From assembly GCA_016235245.1 (NCBI GenBank), contig JACRLO010000007.1, forward strand, positions 1-64,000: 64,000 nucleotides of DNA. The letters run 5' to 3'. Below the pieces are notes generated by a model, which searched no databases, was not told the origin of the DNA, and saw only the letters and a program-made list of their open reading frames with translations. Below are positions 47,045 through 63,423 of this stretch, piece after piece. The stretch comes from Nitrospirota bacterium. Its GTDB lineage: Bacteria; Nitrospirota; Thermodesulfovibrionia; Thermodesulfovibrionales; UBA6898. The position numbers and the translations under genes are program-made. The number at the start of each line of letters is the position of its first letter. The stretch's first letter is position 1.

Positions 47045-48013
47045 GTGTCCCTGCTCGGTGTTAGGGATCTCAATATCTTTTTCCGCTCTGCCTCAGAACC
47101 CGTAAACGTCGTATCAAGCCTCAATTTCGATATTAAAGAATCTGAGATATTCGGCCTGGCCGGCGAAAGCGGCTGCGGCAAGAGTATTACCGCACTTTCT
47201 GTTTTAGGGATTCTGCCTGCATCCGCCCATGCTGAGGGAGAAATATCCTTCAAGGGCAGGAACCTCCTTACGCTTGACAGGGAATCGGTAAGACGGATAC
47301 GCGGCAATGAAATATCCATGATCTTCCAGGAGCCGATGACCTCACTGAACCCTGTGCTTACCATAGGATATCAGATAGCAGAGGTGCTGATGACCCATAA
47401 GGCCATGAACAAGAAAGATTCCATGGACAAGGCAATCGAACTCCTCAGGTCAGTCAGAATCCCCTCGCCAGAGTTACGGGCGGGAGAATATCCTCACCAG
47501 ATGTCAGGCGGCATGAGGCAGCGCGTCATGATCGCCATGGCAATCGCCTGCAGTCCCGCGCTGCTCATAGCAGACGAGCCGACAACAGCGCTTGATGTAA
47601 CGATACAGGCGCAGATCCTTGAGCTCATTCAGGGGCTCAGGGAGGAAAAGAAGATGTCGATCCTTTTCATTACCCATGACCTTGCGATCATCTCTGAAAA
47701 TGCTTCCAGGGTCGCGATTATGTATGCGGGAAGGATCATGGAGCTTGCCGGGACAGCAGACATATTCAGCAATCCGCGCCATCCCTATACCATGGGCCTG
47801 CTTGATTCCCTGCCCCAGCAGAAGGGCAAGGCCCTGAAGCCGATACCCGGGTTTGTGCCAAGGCCTGAGGCCCTTCCTCCCGGCTGCAAATTCTCTGACC
47901 GATGCAGCCATGTGCGCAACTATTGCAGGCAGCAGGAACCGCAGCTGTCTGAGATCGCATTGAACCACTTTTCGCGGTGTATCAGGGCAAAAGAGATATC
48001 ATGGAGCTTCTGA
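47045..48013 (+). CDS. dppD: Peptide/nickel ABC transporter ATP-binding protein (DppD/OppD type)
   Basis: 322 residues from GTG 47045. Walker [18 protein letters not shown] near residue 40, Q-loop [16 protein letters not shown] near 95, signature [16 protein letters not shown] near 155, and Walker [17 protein letters not shown] near 177. A C-terminal oligopeptide-type cysteine segment [14 protein letters not shown] is present. It energises import of oligopeptides or nickel. The partner dppF overlaps by 13 nt, but no permease or binding-protein gene is next to them. Confidence 0.93.
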
Positions 48014-49032
48014 ACGTCAGGGGTCTGACAAAGCATTTTGCAATGTCCAGCAGCTTTGGCAAAGCCAAACAGGTTCTCAGGGCAGTTGACGGCGTCAGCT
48101 TTTCGATCAACGAAGACAGCGTTGTAGCGATCGTCGGCGAGAGCGGCTGCGGGAAATCAACGGTTGCCCGTCTTGTGCTCAGACTGATCACCCCGACATC
48201 CGGCAGCGTTCTTTTTAAGGGAAAAGATCTTTTCAGCTTTGATCGCAAAGAACTCAAGATGTTCAGAAAGTCTGCGCAGATCATCTTCCAGGACCCCTTT
48301 GCATCGCTGAACCCAAGAAGGACTGTATATGATACCGTCTCAGAACCCCTCGTGATTCATAAACTTGCTGAACACGCTGAAATGAGGGACAGAGTAGCCG
48401 GGATTCTGAACACGGTCGGTATGGGGCCTGAGACCATGAACCGCTATCCCCATGAGTTCAGCGGCGGCCAAAGACAACGGATATGCATAGCACGCGCTCT
48501 TGCTGTTTCTCCTGAGCTGATCATTGCAGACGAACCCCTTTCTGCTTTGGATGTCTCGATACAGGCCCAGATATTGAACCTGCTGCACGATCTTAAGCAT
48601 ACGTCAAAGATCGCGTTTCTTTTTATCAGTCACGATCTGAGGGTCGTCCGGTATTTCAGCGATGAAGTCAACGTCATGTATCTTGGGAAGATCGTAGAGC
48701 ACGCAAAAACAGAAGAACTTTTTGATAAGCCCTATCATCCCTATACCGAGGTACTGCTGGCATCTGCACCGAAGATAATAAACCGTGACGGGTTACGAGT
48801 GCTGCGTAATGAGTCTAAAGAATTTTCCTGGTTGGCAGGAGATACACAGGTCACGCAGCACACAGCACGCATTACGGATTTAGGCGATCTGCCAAGCCCT
48901 GTCAACATCCCTTCAGGTTGTCCGTTTCATCCGCGCTGCCCAAAACGCTTTGGGCCCTGCGACAGGATTATTCCTGAGCTGAAAGAAAAAAACGGAAGGC
49001 TTGTTGCCTGCCATTTATGGCATACGGTCTGA
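48001..49032 (+). CDS. dppF: Peptide/nickel ABC transporter ATP-binding protein (DppF/OppF type) with an in-frame insert
   Basis: About 343 residues from ATG 48001 ([13 protein letters not shown]; a longer frame from 47977 reads through dppD). Walker [18 protein letters not shown] near residue 48, Q-loop IIFQDPFASLNPRRT, signature FSGGQRQRICIARALA near 155, and Walker B LIIADEPLSALDVSIQ. Residues ~260-293 (GLRVLRNESKEFSWLAGD, then TQVTQHTARITDLG) are extra compared with the usual C-terminal link, and are coded by DNA with palindromic arms. ATPase motifs are intact. Confidence 0.92.
   Translation: MELLNVRGLTKHFAMSSSFGKAKQVLRAVDGVSFSINEDSVVAIVGESGCGKSTVARLVLRLITPTSGSVLFKGKDLFSFDRKELKMFRKSAQIIFQDPFASLNPRRTVYDTVSEPLVIHKLAEHAEMRDRVAGILNTVGMGPETMNRYPHEFSGGQRQRICIARALAVSPELIIADEPLSALDVSIQAQILNLLHDLKHTSKIAFLFISHDLRVVRYFSDEVNVMYLGKIVEHAKTEELFDKPYHPYTEVLLASAPKIINRDGLRVLRNESKEFSWLAGDTQVTQHTARITDLGDLPSPVNIPSGCPFHPRCPKRFGPCDRIIPELKEKNGRLVACHLWHTV
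48799..48876. repeat. Palindromic repeat-like insert in dppF
   Basis: GTGCTGCGT (48799-48807) and ACGCAGCAC (48853-48861) are a perfect 9-bp inverted repeat. CGTAATG (48805-48811) and CATTACG (48870-48876) form a second pair. They bound an in-frame stretch of dppF that has no counterpart in the usual protein. It has the style of small repeats whose translations read RVLRNE or VTRHA. Confidence 0.5.
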
Positions 49033-49062
49033 TTTCAAAAAGAAATCGTATCAATGGGCTCT

Positions 49063-49848
49063 TCAATGCGCTGCCCCGTTGTTCATATGCTGCCTCAATA
49101 CTGCAACTGCCTTTGAGATCTTCTCTGTTTGAGGGAGGCTCGAGATGATCCTCTCGATATGGCCGCACTCTGAGGCAAGCCTGAATGAAACCGGGAAATT
49201 GAGGTCATAAATCCAGGTGAGCTGCATTATGCCAAAGTCAATCAGTGTTCTAAGATCGGAGAGCCTGGAAAGCCGTCGTTCCGCAAGACATGCCAGGACG
49301 TTATCCGAACATTCCGGCCTGTCAGGCAGACCGAGACCTGCCGCTGACTCCCGCTCTGACGGATCTTTTTTATAATATTCGGCAAATACGCGCCAGATAT
49401 CGAGTTTGTCAGCATCACGTATCATCTTGAGAAAGAATTTTTTCTCGGGATCGAGCCCCTCAGGGATGGCATAGGCATTATGAAATCTGACCGCATCAAC
49501 GATAAGTTCCTGTTCATGGGGCGGCAGTGAAGCCAGCACGTTCCTTTCCCTGATCACCTCGGCACCGAGCCTTCCGTGATTCACGGATTTGCTGTCCCTG
49601 AAGGTCCGGTATTGAGCATACTGAGGGAACCTGCCGACGTCGTGCAACAGGCCGACTGCCTCGGCAATGAACACCTTATTTCTGTCCTGAAGTATCGCCC
49701 GGGCAATCGAAACCATATTTGCAGAGACATTCAGGGTATGCAGCTCTTTGAGAGTGAAATTTTTTCGTTCTTCCTCATTCTCAGAAGAGAATGACTTGCA
49801 GTACCGGGGGAACCACAGTCTGAGGTTCAGAAGGTCAACAAGCTCCAC
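49063..49848 (-). CDS. HD-domain phosphohydrolase-like protein
   Basis: About 261 residues from GTG 49848, just past the hisB stop (a longer frame overlaps hisB). H...HD motif: YCKSF near residue 17, VGLLHDVGRFPQYAQYRTF near residue 70, a later D in KMIRDADKLDIWR near 145. The pattern is that of the HD superfamily of metal-dependent phosphohydrolases. The substrate is unknown. Convergent with dppF (30-bp gap). It is translated in line with hisB, so it may be the last gene of the hisC-hisB unit. Confidence 0.8.
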   Translation of the reverse strand: MELVDLLNLRLWFPRYCKSFSSENEEERKNFTLKELHTLNVSANMVSIARAILQDRNKVFIAEAVGLLHDVGRFPQYAQYRTFRDSKSVNHGRLGAEVIRERNVLASLPPHEQELIVDAVRFHNAYAIPEGLDPEKKFFLKMIRDADKLDIWRVFAEYYKKDPSERESAAGLGLPDRPECSDNVLACLAERRLSRLSDLRTLIDFGIMQLTWIYDLNFPVSFRLASECGHIERIISSLPQTEKISKAVAVLRQHMNNGAAH

Positions 49849-49873
49849 GAAATGGCCGCCTGCTTCCTGCTGA

Positions 49874-50461
49874 TTAAAGCGATCCTTTCGTCGAGGGAAC
49901 GCCCTTGACCCTTGGATCGATCGCAACTGCCTGCTTTAATGCCCGGCCTAATGCCTTGAAGATCGCCTCTATGATGTGGTGAGTGTTCCTGCCATATAAT
50001 ACATTGACATGAAGGGTGATGCCTGCACTGCCTGCAAAGGCCTGAAGAAAGTCCTCGATAAGATCAGGATCGAATTCCCTCAGCTTGCTCTTCTTCGGAA
50101 AGGCGACGTTATACACAAGATACTGCCTGCCGCTGATATCAAGGCTCACCTGGGCCAATGCCTCGTCCATCGGGACCGATGCCTGGCCGTAGCGATTAAT
50201 ACCTTTCATGTCGCCGAGGGCCTCCTTAAGGACCTTGCCAAGAACAATGCCGGTGTCTTCGACGGTATGGTGGTCATCAATCTCAACGTCGCCCTTTGCC
50301 ACGAGCTTCATATCAAAAAGGCCGTGCTTGCACATGAGGGTCAGCATATGATCAAAAAAGGGTATGGGCGTCTTTATCGTATAGGTGCCGGTACCATCAA
50401 GCTTCATCTCGGCCGCTATCTGTGTCTCTTTTGTCTTTCTCTCGATCCTGGCTTTTCTCAT
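49874..50461 (-). CDS. hisB: Imidazoleglycerol-phosphate dehydratase
   Basis: 195 residues from ATG 50461 (GGGGAGAG upstream; a longer frame to 50518 has no family match). Motifs: [17 protein letters not shown] near residue 32, [17 protein letters not shown] near 60, and the late [22 protein letters not shown]. The metal-binding histidines are in place. It carries out the sixth step of histidine synthesis. Monofunctional form without the HisN part. It follows hisC by 19 nt. Confidence 0.95.
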
Positions 50462-50480
50462 ATCTCTCCCCTGTCCTCTG

Positions 50481-51509
50481 TTATACGACTTTTTCGAGTG
50501 CCCTGAGGAACAGGACATTCTCTTTTGGCGTGCCGACGGTCACCCTGAGACAGCCGGCGACAGCATCGCTGATATTCCTGACAAGTATTCCGTCTTCAAG
50601 GAGCCGGCCATATATCTTAAGAGGCTCCTTTACCCTGAAGAGGATGAAGTTCGCCTCTGAAGGAAAAGGCGTCACTCCCCTGATACTCTCCATTGCAGTG
50701 ATCATCCTGTCACGCTCGGCAGCTATCCCCCGTATCGCTGCTTTCAGCGCCTTCTTTTTTTTGAGCGCTTCGACCGCAACAGCCTGGGAAAGGGCATTCA
50801 CATTAAAGGGCAGCCTCACCTTGTTCACCTCATCGATGATCTCCTCATCAGCGACGATAAAGCCGAACCTGAGGGCTGCAAGACCGATCTTCGACAGCGT
50901 CCTCATAATCACAAGATTCTTGTAGTCGCGCAGCAAGGGAACAAAACCCTTATCACTTGCAAACGGCTGGTACGCCTCATCAACAACAACGAGGCCCTTT
51001 GATTCATCGATAATCTTCAGGATCTTTTCAGAAGAAAAGCAGTTGCCTGTCGGATTATTGGGACTGCTCAGAAAAACAATCTTCGGCTTCTCTTTTCTGA
51101 GGGCAGCCACCATGCGGTCAAGGTCAATATCAAAATCCTGATCAAGGGGGATCTCTTTTTTCTTCTCGCCAAGGGCCTGGCCGATAATCCCGTACATAGA
51201 GAAGGTAGGAACAGGATAGAGGACCGGCCCTCCAAAGGTGGCAATAAGGTAATAGATGAGCTCATCAGAGCCGTTGCCCTGAAGCAGGTTCTGTGGCCTT
51301 ACCCCGAGATCCTTTGCAAGGACCGCTTTCAGCGCTTTTGCCTCAGGATCAGGATAGCGGTTCGTCAATATCGTTCCGACAGCCTTCAGTGCGCCCTCAA
51401 AACCATACGGGCTTTCATTGGCATCGAGCTTTATCCTGCAGGGGATCTCCTTTGCCTGATATGCCCTGAGAGATGCGACCTCTTTTTTAACGAGCTTTCG
51501 TATGTTCAT
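50481..51509 (-). CDS. hisC: Histidinol-phosphate aminotransferase
   Basis: 342 residues. PLP-fold type [13 protein letters not shown] near residue 28, [12 protein letters not shown] near 152, [12 protein letters not shown] near 178, and the Schiff-base lysine in [16 protein letters not shown] near 207. It transfers the amino group to imidazole-acetol phosphate in histidine synthesis. Paired with hisB downstream. Other class-I substrates are possible but neighbours support HisC. Confidence 0.93.
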
Positions 51510-51580
51510 GATTGGTGGATTATATCACAAAAGCAGGGAGTCGAAACAGGAGCGTAATGGGGAAAAGATACCTAAAGAAC

Positions 51581-52906
51581 TTACCGGACTCTTCTGCGGT
51601 CCATGATGTAGATGCTCTTGGCAAATGACTTTGCATACTGTTTGAGCTCCGCTACCTTCTGGGATATCTCCATCGGATCCCTGACAAGGGTGCGGTCCGT
51701 ATTGACCACCGCCAGAGAGACGGTCATGATGCCGAACATGGCAGGTTTGTCATTTCGGTCAATCGATATGATAAAGCCCTTTTTGGCGTCTTCGGGGTCG
51801 TAATGAGCGATAATCCCTTTATCGAACTCCTCGATAATCTGGGTGCATATTTTCTGGATCCTGTCAGGCGAACAGATGATCACAAAATCATCGCCGCCGA
51901 TATGGCCGAGAAAGTCATCAGGCGCACCATATTCCTTTTTGATGGCAGTCAGCATTTCAGCCATCCATTTGATCAGTTCGCTGCCCCGGGCATAGCTGTA
52001 CCGGTCATTGTATGCCTTGAAATTGTCCAGATCAATAAGACAGAAAGAGAAACTCTGCGTCTCGTTCAGTCTCGTGAGAAGTTCCTTTTCTATCGCCAGG
52101 TTCCCTGGCAGTTTTGTCAGGGGATTGGCATCAAGGTTTATTACCTCAAGTTCCTTGAGGCGTGATGACATCTCTCTGAATGATATGGCAAGATCGGCAA
52201 GCTCATCCGCTCCCTTAATCTCGGGCATGCTGTCAAAGTCTCCGCTCCTGATCGAGTTTGTCGCCTCTTTCAGCCGCTCGATCGCAGCATTAAGGTGGTT
52301 TGTCAGGAGTGTGGCAAAAAGGAGGCCGAAGACAAAGGATGTTGCACTCAGTACGATCATGATGAGCAGGGCACGTTCACTCAGGGAATTCGATTGATTG
52401 ACATGAATGTTCTGCTGGGCCTTGATCTTCAGGTCTATATCTTTCAGTGCAAGGAGAATTTTATTGAAATGCAATTTCAGGTCATGGCCGGATATCTCCT
52501 GCGCATCCTGGTTTTTATGGTCCTTAATAAGCTGGATTTCACGGGTAAAAAGCGCATTGTATTTTTCGTGCAGGGAAATGAGCGCATCGATGTTGGCGCT
52601 GACGTAATTCTCGGTTTTGCTGATCTCCCCCAGAAGGTTCCTGAAGTCCCTGCTCCTTACCCAGAACAGGTTTTCGGCATCCTGCTGCTGGAGAAGGAGA
52701 GACCTTTTTTCATACAGGTCCTGAGCCAGAATGCTGTCGTTCAACCTCGTCAGTTTTTCATTGATCGCGACGGAATTAAAGACAATGGTCCTCGTAATGG
52801 CATTGAGTTCCTTAAGGCTGAAAATGGCATACATGCCAACAAGCAGCGTAAAGGATATCATCACGATATATCCGAGAAAGATCTTCTGCCGTAGGGAAAA
52901 ATTCAT
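51581..52906 (-). CDS. Membrane GGDEF-domain protein with GGDDF site
   Basis: 441 residues. Membrane helix near residue 10, a four-helix periplasmic sensor (residues ~35-175), a second helix near 185, a HAMP linker (ERLKEATNSIRSGDFDSMPE) and a C-terminal GGDEF domain. The catalytic motif reads GGDDF (GHIGGDDFVIIC, near residue 345) rather than GG[DE]EF, so cyclase activity is uncertain. It may be an atypical cyclase or c-di-GMP or GTP sensor. It lies 12 nt after the second GGDEF gene. Confidence 0.85.
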   Translation of the reverse strand: MNFSLRQKIFLGYIVMISFTLLVGMYAIFSLKELNAITRTIVFNSVAINEKLTRLNDSILAQDLYEKRSLLLQQQDAENLFWVRSRDFRNLLGEISKTENYVSANIDALISLHEKYNALFTREIQLIKDHKNQDAQEISGHDLKLHFNKILLALKDIDLKIKAQQNIHVNQSNSLSERALLIMIVLSATSFVFGLLFATLLTNHLNAAIERLKEATNSIRSGDFDSMPEIKGADELADLAISFREMSSRLKELEVINLDANPLTKLPGNLAIEKELLTRLNETQSFSFCLIDLDNFKAYNDRYSYARGSELIKWMAEMLTAIKKEYGAPDDFLGHIGGDDFVIICSPDRIQKICTQIIEEFDKGIIAHYDPEDAKKGFIISIDRNDKPAMFGIMTVSLAVVNTDRTLVRDPMEISQKVAELKQYAKSFAKSIYIMDRRRVR

Positions 52907-52918
52907 ATCGTTTCTTTT

Positions 52919-54124
52919 TTACGTTAACCGGGAATGCTCAAAGAGCATTACCCTGTTCCTGCCTGATTCCTTGGATTTATACAAAGCCGCATCTGCCAGC
53001 TTTATCGCTGTTTCTATTGTATCACCATCCGCAGGAAAAGTTGCGACACCACCGCTGATCGACACAAAACCAAGGGGCTGCTTTTCCCGGTGCTTAAAGA
53101 GCGTGGTCTCTATCATATTCCTGATCTTTTCGGCATAGATTGCCGCACCCTGCTTGTCCGTGTTGGGGAGCATGACAATAAATTCCTCTCCGCCGTACCG
53201 CGCAACGACATCGCGGCTCCGTGTATGCTTCTTCAGGAGTCTGCCAAGCTCCCTCAGGAGATAATCCCCTTCGGCATGACCGTTCTGGTCGTTGTATTTC
53301 TTAAAATGGTCAATATCGAACATGAAGATCGATATGGGGAAGTTATAGCTGAGGGCCTTCTGTGCTTCATCAATAGAACGCTCCGCAAAATATTTTCTGT
53401 TGTAAAGTTTTGTCAGGGCGTCGGTATTCGCCTCCTCCTGAGCCGTCGAAATCCTCTCGCAGTTCTGCAGGGATACTGCAGCAAGGTCTGTCACCATCGC
53501 AATGAGCCGTTTCTCATCGCCCGTAGGGTTGATAAGCCTGCCAAGACCGAGTACGCCAACCAGACGTCCCCTGAAGATCATCGGCGCTGCGTGCATGATC
53601 TGACTATCGGCTGTCCTTGAGCCCGGCGGACTGTTTTCCTGGGAAAGCATCACCTTCAGCTCCGCTGCCCTGCCGATATAACCTTCACCGACAGCCATGG
53701 AAACCGCCTCTTTCCTTTTCGACCCATAGGCGGCCTCAAGCGTAAGCACCCCCTTCGCTTCGTTATAGATATAGACTTCAATGCATTCAGTATTGACAAG
53801 ATCTTTCGTTACCCTGATAACCGATGATATGGTCTCGTCAAAGGTGAGGCTTGAGTTCAGATGTTTTACCGTCTCCGGTATGCGGACAACAAAGTAGATA
53901 TATTTTTCATTCTGTTTTTTCAGTTCATCGATCTGCCGCCGCATATCATTCTTCCCGGATTCCGAAAGAGAAAGCCTCTTTTCAAATTCTTTCTGGTCGT
54001 TCAAAAGTCTCTTTCTCTCGAAGATGCCGCCGGAAGCCTTACCGATGAAGAAGAAGACAAACGCGGTCAGACTTGCAATGACAAGAGCATAGGCTGTTTG
54101 TGGGTCAGACAGCAGTTCTATCAT
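52919..54124 (-). CDS. Membrane GAF-GGDEF diguanylate cyclase
   Basis: 401 residues. N-terminal membrane helix (ALVIASLTAFVFFFIG), a coiled coil ~40-75, a GAF domain ~90-225, and a GGDEF domain from ~245. Active-site ARYGGEEFIVMLP near residue 320, with the inhibitory I-site RSRD exactly five residues before GGEEF. It makes c-di-GMP and is likely product-inhibited. Co-directional with the GGDDF protein. Confidence 0.92.
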   Translation of the reverse strand: MIELLSDPQTAYALVIASLTAFVFFFIGKASGGIFERKRLLNDQKEFEKRLSLSESGKNDMRRQIDELKKQNEKYIYFVVRIPETVKHLNSSLTFDETISSVIRVTKDLVNTECIEVYIYNEAKGVLTLEAAYGSKRKEAVSMAVGEGYIGRAAELKVMLSQENSPPGSRTADSQIMHAAPMIFRGRLVGVLGLGRLINPTGDEKRLIAMVTDLAAVSLQNCERISTAQEEANTDALTKLYNRKYFAERSIDEAQKALSYNFPISIFMFDIDHFKKYNDQNGHAEGDYLLRELGRLLKKHTRSRDVVARYGGEEFIVMLPNTDKQGAAIYAEKIRNMIETTLFKHREKQPLGFVSISGGVATFPADGDTIETAIKLADAALYKSKESGRNRVMLFEHSRLT

Positions 54125-54195
54125 GGGCGTCCATATCCTTTAGCCGCAGGAGAGCCGGAGAATAATTCAGCATCCTGGCCCTTACGCCATCCCGC

Positions 54196-54933
54196 TTATT
54201 TGAGGTTGCCGCAGGTCGGGCATTGAGGGTCCTTGAACCCCTTGAAAGTCCTGAAGCTCATATCATTGCCTGACCAGACCAACAGCCTGCCCTTTAAGGG
54301 TTTGCCGATATTTGCAAGATATTTGATCGCCTCCATGGCCTGCATGGTGCCGATCACGCCAGGGGTTGCACCGAGCACCGGGAAGACCTCTTTGGGAGGG
54401 GATTCAGGGAAATAACATCTCAGGCAGGGTGTCTCCGGCGACTGTATGAACGTAAGCCTGCCGTCGAGCCCCCAGATGCTCCCATGGACCAGAGGGATAT
54501 TCTTCCGGATCGCAGATTCGTTGAGAAGATACCGGGTCGGGAAATTATCCATGCAGTCAAGGATGAGGTCAGCATTCCCGACCAGTTCGTCCACATTCTC
54601 TGCAACGATCTTGTCAGTAATTGCGGTAACCGTGATGTGGGGGTTCAGCTCTTCAAGCGTCTGCTTTGCTGAAATTGCCTTGTTTGTGCCGATCCGGTTA
54701 TGGTTATGGAGTATCTGGCGGTTAAGGTTCGACTGGTCAGGAGAGTCAAAATCACAGATGCGGATATTGCCGACTCCTGCAACTGCAAGGTAGATCGAGA
54801 CCGGGGAACCGAGCCCTCCGGCCCCGGCAATAAAGATCGTTGAGTTCTTGATCTTTGCCTGGGTCTCTTCTCCCCATCCTTCCATCATCATCTGGCGGGT
54901 GTATCTGCTGATCTCTTCCGGTGTGAATGCCAT
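54196..54933 (-). CDS. HesA/MoeB/ThiF-family E1-like adenylyltransferase
   Basis: 245 residues. ATP-binding IFIAGAGGLGSPVSIYLAVAG near residue 33, Arg motif SNLNRQIL near 68, DCMDNFPTRYLLN near 128. Zinc cysteines CLRC near 172 and CPTC near the end; a possible catalytic Cys lies between. It adenylates the C-terminus of a sulfur-carrier protein (ThiS or MoaD type). Which carrier is unknown. GGGGAGGAATACT precedes the ATG, and it is divergent from the acyl-synthetase fusion gene. Confidence 0.9.
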   Translation of the reverse strand: MAFTPEEISRYTRQMMMEGWGEETQAKIKNSTIFIAGAGGLGSPVSIYLAVAGVGNIRICDFDSPDQSNLNRQILHNHNRIGTNKAISAKQTLEELNPHITVTAITDKIVAENVDELVGNADLILDCMDNFPTRYLLNESAIRKNIPLVHGSIWGLDGRLTFIQSPETPCLRCYFPESPPKEVFPVLGATPGVIGTMQAMEAIKYLANIGKPLKGRLLVWSGNDMSFRTFKGFKDPQCPTCGNLK

Positions 54934-55055
54934 AGTATTCCTCCCCTTCTGCCTCGTGGTGCGACAAACATGCTAGTATAGCTATAGTAAAGATGCCGCA
55001 GTTTTAAAAAAGTATAGCAGATGATCGAACGAACCTTCAATAAAGCTCAGGGACT
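54934..55055. other. Divergent intergenic region
   Basis: 122 bp between the MoeB-like gene and the acyl-CoA synthetase fusion. It contains the ribosome sites of both. No consensus promoter stands out and no RNA gene is seen. Confidence 0.3.
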
Positions 55056-57710
55056 ATGGCAGAAACCATAATCGACCTTTTCCGCAAGGCAGTTTCTGCC
55101 TATCCTGATAATACTGCCTTTCATTACTCCAATGATGGCTGGCAGACCATTACATACCGAGAGCTTGCCGGCAGAGTACGTAGACTTGCATCGTATCTGA
55201 TTACCGCAGGGGTCAAGAGGAATGACCGTATTGCCGTCTTCTCGGAAAATCGTCCTGAGTGGTCTGTTGCTTATCTCGCGATCCTCTCTTGCGGCTGCAT
55301 AGCCGTACCGCTCGATGCCCAGCTTGGTCCGGAAGAGGTAAAGACCCTGCTGCTTGATGCAGGTACCGGTATTGTCCTGCAAAGCGATAAGACCGCAGGT
55401 CAGCTTACGGTTTTTGCGGAGCATTTCCGGAAATCTGCCGGCAAAGACCCCCAGTTTATTGATTTTGACAGCAGCGCATACCGGGCAATAGAAGAGAGCC
55501 CTTCAACAGGACCTCTGCCCGCATGCGATCAGGACGATATCGCATCAATAATATATACGTCAGGTACAACAGGAAATCCGAAGGGCGTTGTTCTTACCCA
55601 TCGGAACTTCTGCTCTGATGCCAGAGCGCTCATTGACGCAGGCATAGTTTCGCATGAAGACAATGTCCTTTCCATTCTTCCTCTGCATCATACCTATGCT
55701 TTTATGTGTACCTTCCTCGTCCCGCTGTTTCTTGGAGCTTCCATAACCTATCCCCTGAGCATGAAAGGCCCTGACATGATTGCAGCCATACAGGGGAGGG
55801 GCGTTAGCGTGCTGATCGGTGTACCACAGCTGCTTAGCATGATCAGAAACGGTATTATGAACAGGATCGATGCGCTGACCTGGCCGCTGCCCTTTCTTCT
55901 GGCAAAGTGTATCGCTCTTTCCAGAACGCTCAGAAGAAGGCTCAGCTTCAATCTTGGCAGGTTTATCTTTAGATCAGTTCACAGGAGCTTCGGAACCCGC
56001 TTCCGGTTCTTTGCCAGTGGCGGCGCAAAGCTCGATCCTGCAGTCATGGAAGGCCTTGAGGCTCTTGGATTTACTGTCCTTGAAGGCTATGGACTCACCG
56101 AGACCTCTCCTGTCGTAACCTTCAACCCTCTTGACAAACGGAAACCCGGCTCTGCAGGGAAACCTCTTCCTTCTGTTTCGATCAGGATTGCCGATCCCTC
56201 TGAGACCGGTGAGGGAGAGGTAGAGATAAAGGGACCCATGGTCATGAATGGCTATTATAACAAGCCTTCCGCAACTGCCGAGGTGATGCATGACGGATGG
56301 TTCAGGACCGGCGATATCGGCAGACTGGACGCTGACGGTTATCTCTATATCACCGGCAGGTCAAAAGAGGTCATTGTCCTGAGTTCAGGCAAGAACATCT
56401 ATCCTGAAGATGTTGAAAAGATGTATCTGTCATCGAAACTGATCAAAGAGCTCTGCGTTATCGGCATAGAGCATCAAGGGATAACAGACTCTCTCCATGC
56501 GGTGATCGTCCCTGATTTTGATTACGCAAAACAGGCTGCCCTTTCCAATCTGCAGGATGCGGTCAAGTGGGAGATCAATGCACTCTCCGGAAGCCTTCCC
56601 TCATACATGAGAATACAGGGGTTCACGCTCCGGAAAGACCCCCTGCCCCGGACACCGCTCGGCAAATTGCGTCGCTTTATGATCAGGGCCGGTCAGCAGC
56701 AGCCGGCACCGGTAAAGCATGATATTCCTTCTGCTGATCAGACATTGTTTGCAGATGAGGTTGGCAGCAAGGTGCTGAAGGTTATCAGTGATTTATCGAA
56801 GAAAGAAAATGAGATACAGGCAGATGATAATCTTGAACTCGACCTGGGCCTGGATTCGCTCTCCAGGATCGAACTCGTTGTGGCACTTGAAAAAGCGCTT
56901 TTCCTGAAGCTCCCCGAGGATTTCATGTCTGATATCCATACCATCAGGGAACTCATCGAAAAAACCAGAGCATCGTTACAGGGGCCCAGAGCAGTGCAGG
57001 CTGAGAAGACCGGCTGGAAAGAGATCATATCCGCAGAGCCCCAAGAGCAGATCATGCTTGAGAGACCTGAATTGATAATGCTGCCGTCGAGGGTGGTGTA
57101 TGCTGCTCTGAGGCTGTTCATGAAGCTCCTTTTTCGCCTCGAAACACAGGGGCTTGAGAATGTTCCTGTCCCCGGGAATTTCATCATTACCCCAAATCAT
57201 GCCAGCTATCTCGATGGGTTTGTTGTCGTGCTTTCATTGCCCTTCTCTGTATTCAGAAACCTGTATCTGCTGGGTATCAGCGATTTTTTCATCGGCTCCC
57301 TGAAGGGATGGATTGCAAAGAAGACCCATGTGATCCCCATTGACTCCTCCGCATACCTCAGCAGGGCGCTCCAGACTTCTGCGTACGTGCTGCGGCATGG
57401 CCGCTCTCTCTGCGTCTTCCCTGAAGGTGGACGGTCGCCTGACAATGCGCTCCTTGAGTTCAAAAAAGGTGTCGGCATCCTTGCCGTAGAAATGGGAATA
57501 CCTGTTGTCCCTGTTTATATTAAAGGGGCGTTTGAGGCCCTGCCGAGAGAGGCAGCATGGCCAAAGTTCACCAGGATCTCAGTCATCTTCGGAACGCCGC
57601 TTTCTGCAAAGGAGACAGATTTTTCCAAAAAACCTGCGGAGATGGATGATTACCAATATTTTGCGTCTCTGATACGGGAGAAGGTGAAGGAACTATCCCA
57701 GTCCTCCTAG
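55056..57710 (+). CDS. Acyl-CoA/acyl-ACP synthetase, ACP domain and PlsC-type acyltransferase fusion
   Basis: 884 residues in three parts. Residues ~1-530 are an AMP-forming ligase (P-loop SIIYTSGTTGNPKGVVLTH near 165, motif EGYGLTETSPVV near 345, and YLYITGRSKEVIV near 428). Residues ~560-645 are a carrier domain whose phosphopantetheine serine lies in DLGLDSLSRIELV near 600. Residues ~660-884 are a PlsC-type acyltransferase (NHASYLDGF near 710, FPEGGRSPDNALLEF near 790). It could activate a fatty acid, hold it on its own ACP and pass it to a lysophospholipid or glycerol phosphate. In E. coli Aas the order is acyltransferase then ligase, without an ACP. Confidence 0.88.
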   Translation: MAETIIDLFRKAVSAYPDNTAFHYSNDGWQTITYRELAGRVRRLASYLITAGVKRNDRIAVFSENRPEWSVAYLAILSCGCIAVPLDAQLGPEEVKTLLLDAGTGIVLQSDKTAGQLTVFAEHFRKSAGKDPQFIDFDSSAYRAIEESPSTGPLPACDQDDIASIIYTSGTTGNPKGVVLTHRNFCSDARALIDAGIVSHEDNVLSILPLHHTYAFMCTFLVPLFLGASITYPLSMKGPDMIAAIQGRGVSVLIGVPQLLSMIRNGIMNRIDALTWPLPFLLAKCIALSRTLRRRLSFNLGRFIFRSVHRSFGTRFRFFASGGAKLDPAVMEGLEALGFTVLEGYGLTETSPVVTFNPLDKRKPGSAGKPLPSVSIRIADPSETGEGEVEIKGPMVMNGYYNKPSATAEVMHDGWFRTGDIGRLDADGYLYITGRSKEVIVLSSGKNIYPEDVEKMYLSSKLIKELCVIGIEHQGITDSLHAVIVPDFDYAKQAALSNLQDAVKWEINALSGSLPSYMRIQGFTLRKDPLPRTPLGKLRRFMIRAGQQQPAPVKHDIPSADQTLFADEVGSKVLKVISDLSKKENEIQADDNLELDLGLDSLSRIELVVALEKALFLKLPEDFMSDIHTIRELIEKTRASLQGPRAVQAEKTGWKEIISAEPQEQIMLERPELIMLPSRVVYAALRLFMKLLFRLETQGLENVPVPGNFIITPNHASYLDGFVVVLSLPFSVFRNLYLLGISDFFIGSLKGWIAKKTHVIPIDSSAYLSRALQTSAYVLRHGRSLCVFPEGGRSPDNALLEFKKGVGILAVEMGIPVVPVYIKGAFEALPREAAWPKFTRISVIFGTPLSAKETDFSKKPAEMDDYQYFASLIREKVKELSQSS

Positions 57711-57874
57711 GCTGGCGGCCGGCCGGAGCTGTTTTGCCCATTGCCGCCGATGATACTGATCAGTTTCGTGAGCAGCTGCCTGAAAATGCCACGACTTTTT
57801 CCTGCGGAGCTTTTGAGTGAGGGGTATATGGTTATTCGTCCATGCTTGTCAGCCTCGTATGTCCTGCTTCCCAT
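57707..57874 (-). CDS. Small protein of 55 residues, unknown function
   Basis: Minus-strand ATG 57874 to TAG 57707 (4-nt overlap with the stop of the fusion gene on the other strand). It encodes MGSRTYEADKHGRITIYPSL, then KSSAGKSRGIFRQLLTKLIS, then a Gly/Asn/Ser-rich tail IIGGNGQNSSGRPPA. Basic, no membrane helix, no family recognised. Support comes from a good promoter exactly upstream (TTGACT, 16-nt spacer, TATAAT, 6 nt to the ATG) and an intact frame. There is no ribosome site, so leaderless translation would be needed. Confidence 0.5.
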   Translation of the reverse strand: MGSRTYEADKHGRITIYPSLKSSAGKSRGIFRQLLTKLISIIGGNGQNSSGRPPA

Positions 57875-57880
57875 AGTGAA

Positions 57881-57908
57881 ATTATAGCAGAGAAAAATGG
57901 CGAGTCAA
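57881..57908 (-). promoter_or_regulatory. Promoter of the 55-residue gene
   Basis: On the minus strand TTGACT (57908-57903), 16-nt spacer, TATAAT (57886-57881), then six bases (TTCACT) to the ATG at 57874. A start site at the A of the ATG is the expected position for this -10 box. Confidence 0.6.
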
Positions 57909-58061
57909 ATTAAGATTGATTCATTATATGGCCTGAGCAGCGTTAAGGGTTGCAACCAATGCTCATCAGGGGCTTCCTGCTTCAGCAACGTGCGGGATAT
58001 GTTCTGTTTTAACCGGGTCCATTGCTTTACATTTCTCCCGTTATTCCTGTATCTTTTTAAG
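57909..58061. other. Gap upstream of the PHP gene
   Basis: About 150 bp that is open in the PHP frame but unlike the family, and therefore probably untranslated. No repeat, hairpin with T tract or RNA gene is obvious. Confidence 0.3.
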
Positions 58062-58724
58062 ATGATCGATCTTCATACACACACTATTTTCAGCGATGGA
58101 GAGCTGATTCCTTTTGAGCTGGTCAGGAGGGCTGAGGCAATAGGATGCCGGGCTATTGCTATCACGGACCACATGGATGCATCCAATCTTGACCTTATCA
58201 TCCCCCGTATCGTAAAAGCTGTCGAAAAGCTTAAATCCCATGTCCCGATCGATGTAATCCCCGGCGCAGAGATTACCCACGCACCGCCCGGACTGATCGC
58301 AGACCTGGTAAAAGATGCCCGTGCGCTCGGCGCAAAGATCGTTGTTGTGCATGGCGAGACGATTGCTGAACCGGTGATAAAAGGCACGAACAGGGCCGCT
58401 ATTGAGGCTGGCGCCGACATCCTCTCTCATCCGGGAATGATCAGCATCGAGGACATGCTCCGCGCAAAGGAAAAGAACGTTCTTCTTGAGATCACGGCGC
58501 GACGGGGCCATGCATTCACCAACGGCTATCTCGCAAAAGAAGCTATAAAGTTCGGCGTGCCTCTTTGCATCAATACTGACGCTCACGGCCCCGGGGATCT
58601 CATCACGAAGGAGCATGCCCGGAACATCCTGCTGGGAGCCGGTATTGAGGAAAACAGGATAGATTCCGTATTTGAAAATTCTAAATCCCTTGTAGATAGA
58701 GTCCTAAGGAGGAGCAATGCCTAA
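58062..58724 (+). CDS. PHP-domain phosphoesterase
   Basis: About 220 residues from ATG 58062, chosen because the PHP motif begins at once (MIDLHTHTIFSDGE). The frame upstream to 57897 lacks family features. Metal ligands: HTHT near residue 5, ITDHMD near 35, GAEITH near 70, VHGET near 95, SHPGM near 125, NTDAHGPGD near 175. Members include histidinol phosphatases and other phosphoesterases; the substrate is unknown. Its stop overlaps the next gene by 8 nt. Confidence 0.87.
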   Translation: MIDLHTHTIFSDGELIPFELVRRAEAIGCRAIAITDHMDASNLDLIIPRIVKAVEKLKSHVPIDVIPGAEITHAPPGLIADLVKDARALGAKIVVVHGETIAEPVIKGTNRAAIEAGADILSHPGMISIEDMLRAKEKNVLLEITARRGHAFTNGYLAKEAIKFGVPLCINTDAHGPGDLITKEHARNILLGAGIEENRIDSVFENSKSLVDRVLRRSNA

Positions 58725-59418
58725 AGCGATAAAAAAGAAGTCAGCGCATAAAAAAGAGGTCGATACTGAGATACAGGTAAAAGACAGTTTCGAAGGCATG
58801 AAAAAGGTCTTCGAACAGAGGCAGAAGTCACTTGTTAGCTATGGCCTGGTTGCGCTCAGCGCGGCAATTGTCATCGGCGGCATCGCCGTTTACCGGTTCA
58901 GTGCCAATGACAAGGCCCGGCAACTCGAATACGACGCGTACAAGGCCTATTACAACATATATCAGAAGACACCTCTTGCCGGGCAGGACAAAGCACAAAA
59001 AGCTCTGGAACTGTTTCAGCAGGCATATGAAAAGAAGAAGTCGCCAAGGGTTCTTCTCTTTATAGCAGACGCATATGCAGAAATGGCAAAATACGATGAA
59101 GCGTTAAAGACGCTTGATGAATTCACTCAACGGTTTGTTCGTGAAGAGGCCCTCATCCCCCTGGCCTATCAAAAAATGGTTGTGCTGCAGCTCAAGAAAG
59201 GGAGTAGGGATGAGGCATTAAAGACCCTTGACAGGATTTCTGCTGCTCCGGGCGACATGCTAAAGGACTTTGCCCTTATCCAGAAGGCGAGAATGCTCGA
59301 ACAGGATGGCAAAAAAGATGAAGCAATCGTGAAGTATAAGGAGCTTGCGGCGAAATACCCTCAGTCACCCTATGTTGAGGAGGCAAAGACAAAATCCGGC
59401 GAGAAAAAAGCAGGATAA
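58717..59418 (+). CDS. Single-pass membrane TPR protein (YfgM-like)
   Basis: 233 residues. Lys-rich cytoplasmic tail (residues 1-40), one membrane helix (LVALSAAIVIGGIAVY near 45-60) and about four TPR-like repeats to the end (ALELFQQAYEKKKSP, EALKTLDEFTQRF, EALKTLDRISAAPG, EAIVKYKELAAKYPQSPYVE). This matches the layout of YfgM, an assistant of the SecYEG translocon, though the similarity is one of architecture. It overlaps the PHP gene by 8 nt. Confidence 0.78.
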   Translation: MPKAIKKKSAHKKEVDTEIQVKDSFEGMKKVFEQRQKSLVSYGLVALSAAIVIGGIAVYRFSANDKARQLEYDAYKAYYNIYQKTPLAGQDKAQKALELFQQAYEKKKSPRVLLFIADAYAEMAKYDEALKTLDEFTQRFVREEALIPLAYQKMVVLQLKKGSRDEALKTLDRISAAPGDMLKDFALIQKARMLEQDGKKDEAIVKYKELAAKYPQSPYVEEAKTKSGEKKAG

Positions 59419-59429
59419 TAAAAGACCGA

Positions 59430-60680
59430 TTACGCTTTTCGGGTTTTCTTTGATTTGGTGCTCTTCCTTGCGGTTGCAGCACCTTTCTTTTTGCCTGAAA
59501 CAGAGGAGACTTTTACTTTCTTCTGCGACACCTTTTTCATAAGAGCCCTATCGAGATTGTCCAGACTGAAAAGGTCCTTTGGCGGCAGATAGATCGTGCT
59601 CCCTTTCTTGAGGGGCATAATCTTTTCAATGGCGTTCAGGGAAAGAATTACCGGCACAGGGATACCGGTTTTCCCTGAGATACTTTTGAAGGTATCGCCC
59701 GACTTTACCGTGTATCGGTCAATGGTAAAGCGTTCCACTTCAGGAATGGAAGCGAGCTTCTCCATAAACAGGTCCCGCGACCCTACAGGGATCTTCAGAA
59801 TATACCGTTCTGCATCCGGCGGTGTACACCATCTCCTGAGCTCAGGATTCAGCCTCTTGACCTCGTCAAGCGTTATACCGGCGCATTCAGCTACAACAGC
59901 CAGATCAATCGGAGATTCTATCTCAACCTCGTCATAGCTCAGGGGCGTCTGATACTCTATTGCTTCAAACCCGAACTCCCTGGGATTGGAGGCTATCATG
60001 CTTGCCGCAATGAACCTCGGCACATACTCCTTTGTCTCTGTCCTGATATGCTTTGTATCCAGAAGGTCCCAGTAGTCGTCTGCGTTGCTTTTCTTCATTG
60101 CCCGCATGATCTTGCCCTCGCCTGCATTATAGGCAGCCATGGCAAGGTTCCATGATCCGAACATGCCATGGAGATCTTTCAGATAGTCTGCCGCCGCCTC
60201 GGTAGACTTGACAGGATCCCGTCTTTCGTCTTTCCACCAGTTGATCTCAAGGCCGTATCTCTTGGCGGTCGACGCGATAAACTGCCAGGGACCCGCAGCA
60301 TGGGCAATGGAATAAGCGTTCGTACTGAAGCCGCTCTCTATAAGCGACATAAAAACTATATCTTCCGGAACATCTTTTTTCCTGAGGATATCTTTCATGA
60401 CATCGAGGTACTTTCCGGATCTGCTCAGATACAGGGCAAACCGGTCCTTGATCCTGTTGGCAAAAAGGCTGATATTTCTGTCAACAGCCCTTGAGGCGGT
60501 CTGATTATCAGCATAGGGCACAAGGACAGGAGATGGCTGAAGGACGATACTGTTCTGGGGCTGGTTAACAGACGGAAGCTCTTGGCTGATCTTTTCTTCT
60601 GATGATTCTAATGCTATTGCCGGCAAACTTGTGAGCAGAAGCATAGAGAGAATGGAAAAAAGATGTATGAATCTTTTCAT
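59430..60680 (-). CDS. mltD: Membrane-bound lytic murein transglycosylase (MltD type) with LysM
   Basis: 416 residues. N-terminal signal peptide (LFSILSMLLLTSLPAIA). Transglycosylase domain with catalytic Glu in FMSLIESGFSTNAYS near residue 115, AAGPWQFIASTAKRYGL near 130 and MAAYNAGEGKIMRAM near 190. A LysM repeat (YTVKSGDTFKSISGKTGIP) near 320. A Lys/Arg-rich tail (KKGAATARKSTKSKKTRKA) is unusual and may bind anionic wall polymer. It cleaves peptidoglycan glycan strands. Converges with the YfgM-like gene. Confidence 0.92.
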   Translation of the reverse strand: MKRFIHLFSILSMLLLTSLPAIALESSEEKISQELPSVNQPQNSIVLQPSPVLVPYADNQTASRAVDRNISLFANRIKDRFALYLSRSGKYLDVMKDILRKKDVPEDIVFMSLIESGFSTNAYSIAHAAGPWQFIASTAKRYGLEINWWKDERRDPVKSTEAAADYLKDLHGMFGSWNLAMAAYNAGEGKIMRAMKKSNADDYWDLLDTKHIRTETKEYVPRFIAASMIASNPREFGFEAIEYQTPLSYDEVEIESPIDLAVVAECAGITLDEVKRLNPELRRWCTPPDAERYILKIPVGSRDLFMEKLASIPEVERFTIDRYTVKSGDTFKSISGKTGIPVPVILSLNAIEKIMPLKKGSTIYLPPKDLFSLDNLDRALMKKVSQKKVKVSSVSGKKKGAATARKSTKSKKTRKA

Positions 60681-60716
60681 TGGCTATTATTCTCCCGTTA
60701 GCGCCTCCCTTTGTCA

Positions 60717-60744
60717 AGTATAATAGGGCATTTATATAGGGCAA
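60717..60744 (-). promoter_or_regulatory. Promoter of mltD
   Basis: On the minus strand TTGCCC (60744-60739), 16-nt spacer, TATACT (60722-60717), 36 nt before the mltD ATG. The remainder of the 230-bp gap between mltD and pncC shows no gene; the plus-strand TTGACA at 60868 has no clear -10. Confidence 0.5.
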
Positions 60745-60911
60745 ACTTTAAATAAAGCGTCCCATATGCACACTTTATCAGCCACAAATAACGTGCAACC
60801 TCTCTGTTCACAAGGATCAGGGGGAAAGACGCTGAAGACATCCATAACTCTTGAGAGAAGCATATCATTGACAACGACAAAGTCCGGACACCAAAATAGA
60901 ACTGTACAAGC

Positions 60912-63423
<2,512 letters not shown>

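Follow-up and report, generated by a model that had tools for sequence, protein, structure and literature searches.

A reductase-less ElbD-like protein of Nitrospirota carries an acyl ligase, an acyl carrier and a PlsC-type acyltransferase on one chain

Introduction

A 64,000-nucleotide stretch of a Nitrospirota contig (JACRLO010000007.1; hereafter the window, whose positions are used throughout) holds a gene that seems to join an acyl ligase, an acyl carrier and an acyltransferase. The locus raises the question of where such a protein would send the fatty acid that it activates, and whether its design is really a new one.

Results

One intact gene for a three-domain protein

The reading frame 55056-57710 (+) starts with ATG and runs for 884 amino acids with no internal stop, and the opposite strand of the same interval shows many stops in frame 1. 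In the protein, Pfam detects AMP-binding at residues 9-401 (E 1.2e-85), AMP-binding_C_3 at residues 438-540 (22.5 bits against a cut-off of 20.8), PP-binding at residues 572-635 (E 9.6e-10, 39 bits against 20.8) and Acyltransferase at residues 695-823 (E 1.5e-25), every one above its own cut-off. The DLGLDSL motif corresponds to residues 596-602 and contains the carrier serine, Ser601. Both Pfam and the intact reading frame confirm the order given by the initial annotation, an AMP-ligase, a carrier and a PlsC-like acyltransferase in a single protein encoded by one gene (Table 1).

Table 1. Positions of the fusion gene and its parts in the window
Feature	Position	Strand	Evidence
Complete fusion gene, 884 aa and stop codon (ligase, acyl carrier, PlsC-type acyltransferase)	55056..57710	+	ORF, Pfam
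AMP-forming acyl ligase, residues about 1-548	55056..56699	+	Pfam, invariant residues, fold match to adenylating enzymes
Extra, largely helical segment within the ligase, residues about 262-314	55839..55997	+	
Ligase Lys537 codon	56664-56666	+	
Acyl carrier (PP-binding) domain, residues 572-635	56769..56960	+	Pfam
Ser601 codon, predicted phosphopantetheine site	56856..56858	+	Invariant in relatives; modification inferred
PlsC-type acyltransferase with leading helix, residues 670-884 (His715, Asp720, Glu790, Arg793)	57063..57707	+	

Regarding its surroundings, the fusion gene seems to stand alone at the locus. Upstream, on the opposite strand, is a ThiF/MoeB-like gene, and a PHP-domain gene on the same strand begins 186 bases 3' of the fusion gene. 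A terminator-like hairpin begins at 57712, although the five terminator-like sites of the window are little above what shuffled sequences give (mean 2.6, sd 1.6). Among the 14 window genes scanned with Pfam (47045-63423), we found no NAD-epimerase or HAD-type gene of the kind present in the elb operon. Clustering of the reading frames around 38 loci of unequal length gave no widely conserved lipid-gene neighbour; leaving aside the gene itself and overlapping frames, the recurrent ones were of diguanylate-cyclase type (7), sensor type (6) and MoeB/ThiF-like type (5). Elsewhere in the window, HD-domain, IGPD (HisB-type) and aminotransferase genes stand in a row, overlapping or adjoining (49063-51509, minus strand), and two adjacent GGDEF-domain genes, of which one has HAMP and the other a GAF-like region, occupy 51581-54124 (minus strand).

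The fusion and its key residues are kept in relatives

In our own genome and 40 relatives, the fusion was found as a single stretch of 820 or more of the 884 residues in 33 of 41 genomes, with internal stops in two of these near-whole copies (G008 and G029). It was split across two contigs in one more genome (G013) and absent from seven, as counted from the match listing. Matches at E<=1e-120 came from 97 of the 295 Nitrospirota genomes in the phylum sample, and fusions were also found in Omnitrophota. Judging from these sequences, the fusion is not a chance arrangement.

The nearest named contigs are from Nitrospirota, chiefly MAGs. Among the 80 named loci kept, most of L021-L050 together with L062 are fusions or longer proteins containing the same part, from Nitrospirota, Omnitrophota, myxobacterial records and one Planctomycetota record. 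The rest comprises 48 unfused ligases, one ligase with no recognised carrier (L045) and one locus cut by the contig end (L064). Another 60 places were retrieved from further genomes. Decayed or partial forms were also seen: the copy of G008 (L016) is broken by two TAG codons, and G040 holds a second, broken copy spread over several frames (L204, contig C18). A frame of L202 (G018:C97, 134-1042, minus strand), truncated by the contig end, encodes a carrier followed by a PlsC-type domain that belongs to another lineage.

Ser601, Glu349, Asp420, Arg435, Lys537, His715, Asp720 and Glu790 were invariant in 98 of 98 rows. These rows, the window protein counted in, were picked solely by an alignment of more than 780 residues to it, with no carrier demanded; identical rows were dropped and near-copies retained. 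After clustering at 90% identity, with all three domains required, the eight residues were again invariant in all 91 rows (77 from Nitrospirota, 7 from Omnitrophota and 7 of ElbD type). Hence, the carrier most probably works, since the retention of Ser601 down to about 30% identity without exception would otherwise be hard to explain. Loss of the carrier in some members was considered and rejected, as Ser601 is found in all 98 rows; in one locus, L038, Pfam did not detect PP-binding at E 0.001.

The ligase and carrier resemble a module that loads its own carrier

The AlphaFold model of the full protein has a mean pLDDT of 81.9 and a pTM of 0.63, with pLDDT below 50 in the two linkers flanking the carrier. 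Using Foldseek, the full model matched MenE ternary complexes at an rmsd of 3.5-3.8 and the LgrA initiation module in its thiolation state over 663 columns at an rmsd of 5.9, which is more columns than the ligase alone would provide. With VIA-align, only residues 1-549 of the full model were covered and no carrier-containing match was obtained, so that the structural match that includes the carrier comes from Foldseek. As modelled, the ligase-carrier part resembles a non-ribosomal peptide synthetase (NRPS) A-PCP module loading its carrier.

The genome also contains a gene of holo-ACP-synthase type (AcpS type). Two free carrier-type frames are found elsewhere in it, and because of them the fusion may also trade with free carriers. 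Regarding the extra segment of the ligase, it is common to ElbD-type proteins and to unfused ligases of the same clade; in the wider clade, 53 unfused ligases carry it or a stretch of similar length. It is absent from Aas, FadD and three other ligases of our own genome.

The transferase differs from PlsC and Aas at the acceptor places

Modelled alone, the transferase reached a pLDDT of 87.1. It has the PlsC fold with NHx4D and FPEGxR motifs, and its closest solved structure is PlsC of T. maritima (5kym; Z 19.9, rmsd 2.5, 197 residues aligned), followed by chain T of 7zkq, a complex I assembly intermediate (Z 16.6), and by GPATs (Z 15.1-15.7). Among NCBIfam models, the top score was for acyl-[ACP]--phospholipid O-acyltransferase (91.7 bits, below the cut-off), and TIGR00530 (AGP_acyltrn) was not reached either (66.8 bits, cut-off 102.95). 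The separate PlsC of the same genome also fell short of TIGR00530, with 75.6 bits. By family score, then, the transferase leans towards phospholipid O-acyltransferases.

According to passages of PMC6688108, the phosphate of lysophosphatidic acid (LPA) is suggested to bind the motif III arginine, R159, and K105 in T. maritima PlsC, and PlsC motif II has a conserved arginine; passages of PMC4280512 report a loss of activity when the motif III arginine of AGPAT1 or GPAT1 was mutated. At the places of K105, the motif II arginine and the motif III arginine, the window protein has Ile741, Ser764 and Arg793, one of three kept, in an assignment that depends on alignment through a gappy region. Across 84 fusions of Nitrospirota and Omnitrophota, the K105-place lysine occurs in none, the motif II arginine in one and the motif III arginine in 83. 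The lysine count depends on the alignment register, 10 and 32 of the 84 having a lysine one or two positions further on; the window protein has neither.

The same three places read K, R and R in both the separate PlsC of our genome and E. coli PlsC, and in 11, 14 and 14, respectively, of 18 further unfused rows (two of which are broken fusion copies). All seven ElbD types have A, R and R, and E. coli Aas aligns with Y, P and I. Of the 31 Aas-type rows, 29 could be read at the motif III place, 28 of them with a pattern and E. coli Aas from the alignment, and all 29 have Ile or Met there; the other two stayed unread. By its acceptor residues, the fusion transferase is thus, on sequence grounds, neither a standard PlsC nor of the Aas type. 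The acceptor cannot be named from sequence, because the motif III arginine is kept but the other two canonical PlsC residues are absent.

The fusion stands beside the PlsY/PlsC pathway

PlsY gave no match in our own assembly (G000). In the phylum sample it was present in 277 of 295 genomes, including fusion-bearing genomes of the same genus (G001, G002 and G005). Its absence from G000 is most likely an assembly gap, because that assembly is 96% complete. One could argue that the fusion replaces PlsY as first acyltransferase, but this proposal is refuted by the presence of PlsY in those 277 genomes, close fusion-bearing kin among them. Together with the separate gene of PlsC type in our genome, this makes the fusion a supplement to the normal pathway.

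The fusion is apart from Aas

Passages of PMC11416262 assign residues 1-203 of Aas to the transferase and 204-719 to the synthetase, with holo-ACP as a substrate. In our own scan of E. coli K-12 Aas, PlsC came before the ligase and no carrier domain was detected; the statement of the initial annotation that Aas has its acyltransferase first and uses free ACP agrees with both sources. All 31 Aas-type rows had the PlsC-ligase order and none had a carrier domain. In the ligase tree, Aas grouped with FadD and ligases of our own genome, apart from the fusions, and the full window protein scored 251.1 bits against NCBIfam PRK08633, short of the cut-off of 1221.

As counted from the listing, 55 of 198 genomes had an Aas-type match that spans both the transferase and the ligase (query position 20 or lower to at least 600). 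Four of the 55 also bear the fusion (G117, G121, G171 and G213), the fusion rate being 97 of 295 in the larger sample. The two patterns look complementary but track deep lineages, and three genomes from families f27 and f30 (G121, G171 and G213) encode both proteins. MFS-PlsC-AAS fusions are common in other Nitrospirota families (L211-L238, frames of about 1140-1220 aa), and G018 has one (L200, G018:C415) in addition to the ligase-ACP-PlsC fusion. Our own genome also encodes an unfused 516-aa ligase (L162, G000:C4:58060-59559) with the synthetase part of PRK08633 as its best NCBIfam match (484.7 bits), which reads as an Aas-type acyl-ACP synthetase without a transferase.

The nearest described architecture is that of ElbD

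Passages of PMC9131029, recounting Lorenzen et al. 2014, describe ElbD of Myxococcus xanthus as having reductase, ACS, ACP and AGPAT-like domains. They state that its ACS and ACP were confirmed to be active in vitro, that acyltransferase activity was undetected for isolated ElbD, and that ElbD-like homologues, almost all of them reductase-less, exist in some bacteria of other phyla. Sponge symbionts have elbD-type clusters with a reductase, as reported in part of PMC9426513.

We compared the window protein with seven long ElbD-type proteins, the Minicystis one and six others, M. xanthus ElbD itself not being among them. Pfam showed the long form in proteins from Minicystis rosea and from two MAGs, one of Bradymonadaceae and one of Planctomycetota, and four further myxobacterial-type proteins agree with it in length and offset. 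The window protein was 30-33% identical to these seven over about 840-885 residues, all behind the reductase part. It is a reductase-less ElbD-like relative, of an architecture already described in outline; our literature search found no characterisation of a reductase-less member.

Of the 33 genomes with a near-whole fusion, 26 Nitrospirota genomes were searched with the reductase part of Minicystis ElbD; none gave a match, and both control genomes were positive. A search for the Sterile domain matched none of 41 genomes, but as it matched none of 14 controls either, this negative carries no weight. NAD_binding_4 gave eight matches in our own genome; their frames were 281-342 aa long and none scored above 56.1 bits, compared with 173 bits for Minicystis ElbD. 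We take these matches to be ordinary epimerase-type proteins, because the model also matches in 14 of 14 control genomes.

In a midpoint-rooted tree of PlsC domains with several long branches, 24 Nitrospirota and 7 Omnitrophota fusions grouped with two broken copies at 97/97. A quick ligase tree of 20 Nitrospirota fusions left three divergent ones (L159-L161) outside the main group. Neither tree places ElbD firmly as the sister group of the fusions.

Discussion

Taken together, we somewhat favour the reading that this reductase-less ElbD-like enzyme passes a fatty acid by way of its own carrier to a membrane glycerolipid, in accessory salvage or remodelling. The ligase would use ATP to adenylate a free fatty acid, probably a long-chain one, to give acyl-AMP, and the acyl group would then pass to the phosphopantetheine arm that Ser601 would bear on the enzyme's own carrier, presumably in cis. 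The PlsC-type domain would move it to a hydroxyl group of a glycerolipid in the membrane, with a lysophospholipid or a related lyso-glycerolipid the likeliest acceptor, and the whole may serve as an accessory way to salvage fatty acids or remodel lipids alongside the normal PlsY/PlsC pathway. This mechanism is plausible, and the activate-load-transfer design is well supported by the anatomy, namely the invariant carrier serine and catalytic residues and the A-PCP-like model.

The initial annotation had called the protein a self-contained acyl transfer machine. That anatomy, those residues and that model speak for the description; its contrast with Aas only is too narrow, because ElbD and the reductase-less ElbD-like proteins share the domain order. 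Its proposal that acyl groups are delivered into phospholipids is stronger than the sequence allows: the retained motif III arginine is in favour and the absence of the other two canonical PlsC residues is against, and direct channelling of the fatty acid by the protein's own carrier is what we infer. Counted against our main reading are the lack of a conserved lipid neighbour, acceptor residues unlike those of PlsC or Aas, the two free carriers and, from the passages of PMC9131029, the undetected acyltransferase activity of isolated ElbD. Against loading in cis stand the ligase-only result of the second aligner and the low pLDDT of the carrier linkers.

The kinship to ElbD suggests another role, in ether lipids or plasmalogens, with the reductase step coming from another protein. 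The domain order, the identity along nearly the whole chain and the common ligase segment point that way. So do passages of PMC11868695, in which M. xanthus ElbD was used to screen MAGs for ether-lipid makers and Ger homologues, listed separately from that screen, were found in 14 of 23 Nitrospirota MAGs. The same passages report, however, that ether lipids were undetected in Pontiella despite its ElbD homologues, so a homologue need not mean ether lipids. As the Minicystis reductase part was also unmatched in 26 of 26 genomes with positive controls, and no NAD-epimerase or HAD-type gene was found among the 14 scanned window genes, we consider an ether-lipid role unlikely.

The enzyme might instead be a second LPA acyltransferase, using salvaged fatty acid to make phosphatidate, as the closest solved structure is a PlsC and the motif III arginine is retained in nearly all fusions, against Ile or Met in the Aas-type rows. 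This seems doubtful to us, since the K105-place lysine and the motif II arginine, both present in our own PlsC and that of E. coli, are missing from all and all but one of the 84 fusions, respectively, and the TIGR00530 score stays below the cut-off. PlsC-type folds act on varied acceptors, for example lyso-ornithine lipid, a variety echoed in the names of NCBIfam models. A non-phospholipid acceptor such as an aminolipid or a glycolipid would be consistent with this variety and with acceptor residues unlike those of both PlsC and Aas. Matching biosynthetic neighbours were found neither among the scanned window genes nor widely across the loci, and the best family scores of the transferase are for phospholipid acyltransferases, so we regard such an acceptor as very improbable.

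If our preferred reading of an accessory glycerolipid-acylating enzyme is true, many Nitrospirota and Omnitrophota would have an enzyme for recycling or remodelling fatty acids that is independent of free acyl carrier protein. In a bolder and rather unlikely version, these phyla would hold a widespread, free-ACP-independent route for recycled or scavenged fatty acid whose acceptor is neither LPA nor the lysophospholipids of Aas, leading to a lipid not yet described in hosts that are mostly uncultured bacteria. The protein would also provide a simpler system for asking what the ElbD carrier and transferase do, useful because, by the passages of PMC9131029, transferase activity was undetected for isolated ElbD. 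Ser601, Lys537, His715 and Arg793 form a small set of residues that makes the steps separable.

By comparing the protein with known systems, its place becomes clearer. With PlsC, the LPA acyltransferase, it shares the fold and the NHx4D and FPEGxR motifs, but at the aligned places it has neither the lysine nor the motif II arginine, and it brings its own donor machinery. Like the LgrA initiation module and other NRPS A-PCP modules, it has an adenylating domain followed by a carrier, in a model near the thiolation state; peptide-forming domains follow there, whereas a PlsC-type acyltransferase follows here. Aas and the MFS-PlsC-AAS proteins of PRK08633 type also unite an acyl ligase with a PlsC-type transferase on one chain, their overall chemistry is proposed to be alike, and the PRK08633 model is the best match of the fusion transferase. 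In Aas, however, the transferase comes first and holo-ACP is used in place of a built-in carrier, while the window protein has its ligase first and its own carrier; moreover, the motif III arginine is replaced and the extra ligase segment absent in Aas, and the fusion has both. Finally, ElbD differs by its N-terminal reductase (NAD_binding_4 plus Sterile), where nothing precedes the ligase in the window protein, by a motif II arginine that the window protein has lost, and by its elb-type gene cluster, of which no neighbours appear among the scanned window genes. Behind that reductase, ElbD has ACS, ACP and AGPAT-like acyltransferase domains on one chain in the same order as the window protein, and the ElbD-type rows share with it the carrier serine and the catalytic residues, in 7 of 7, as well as the ligase segment.
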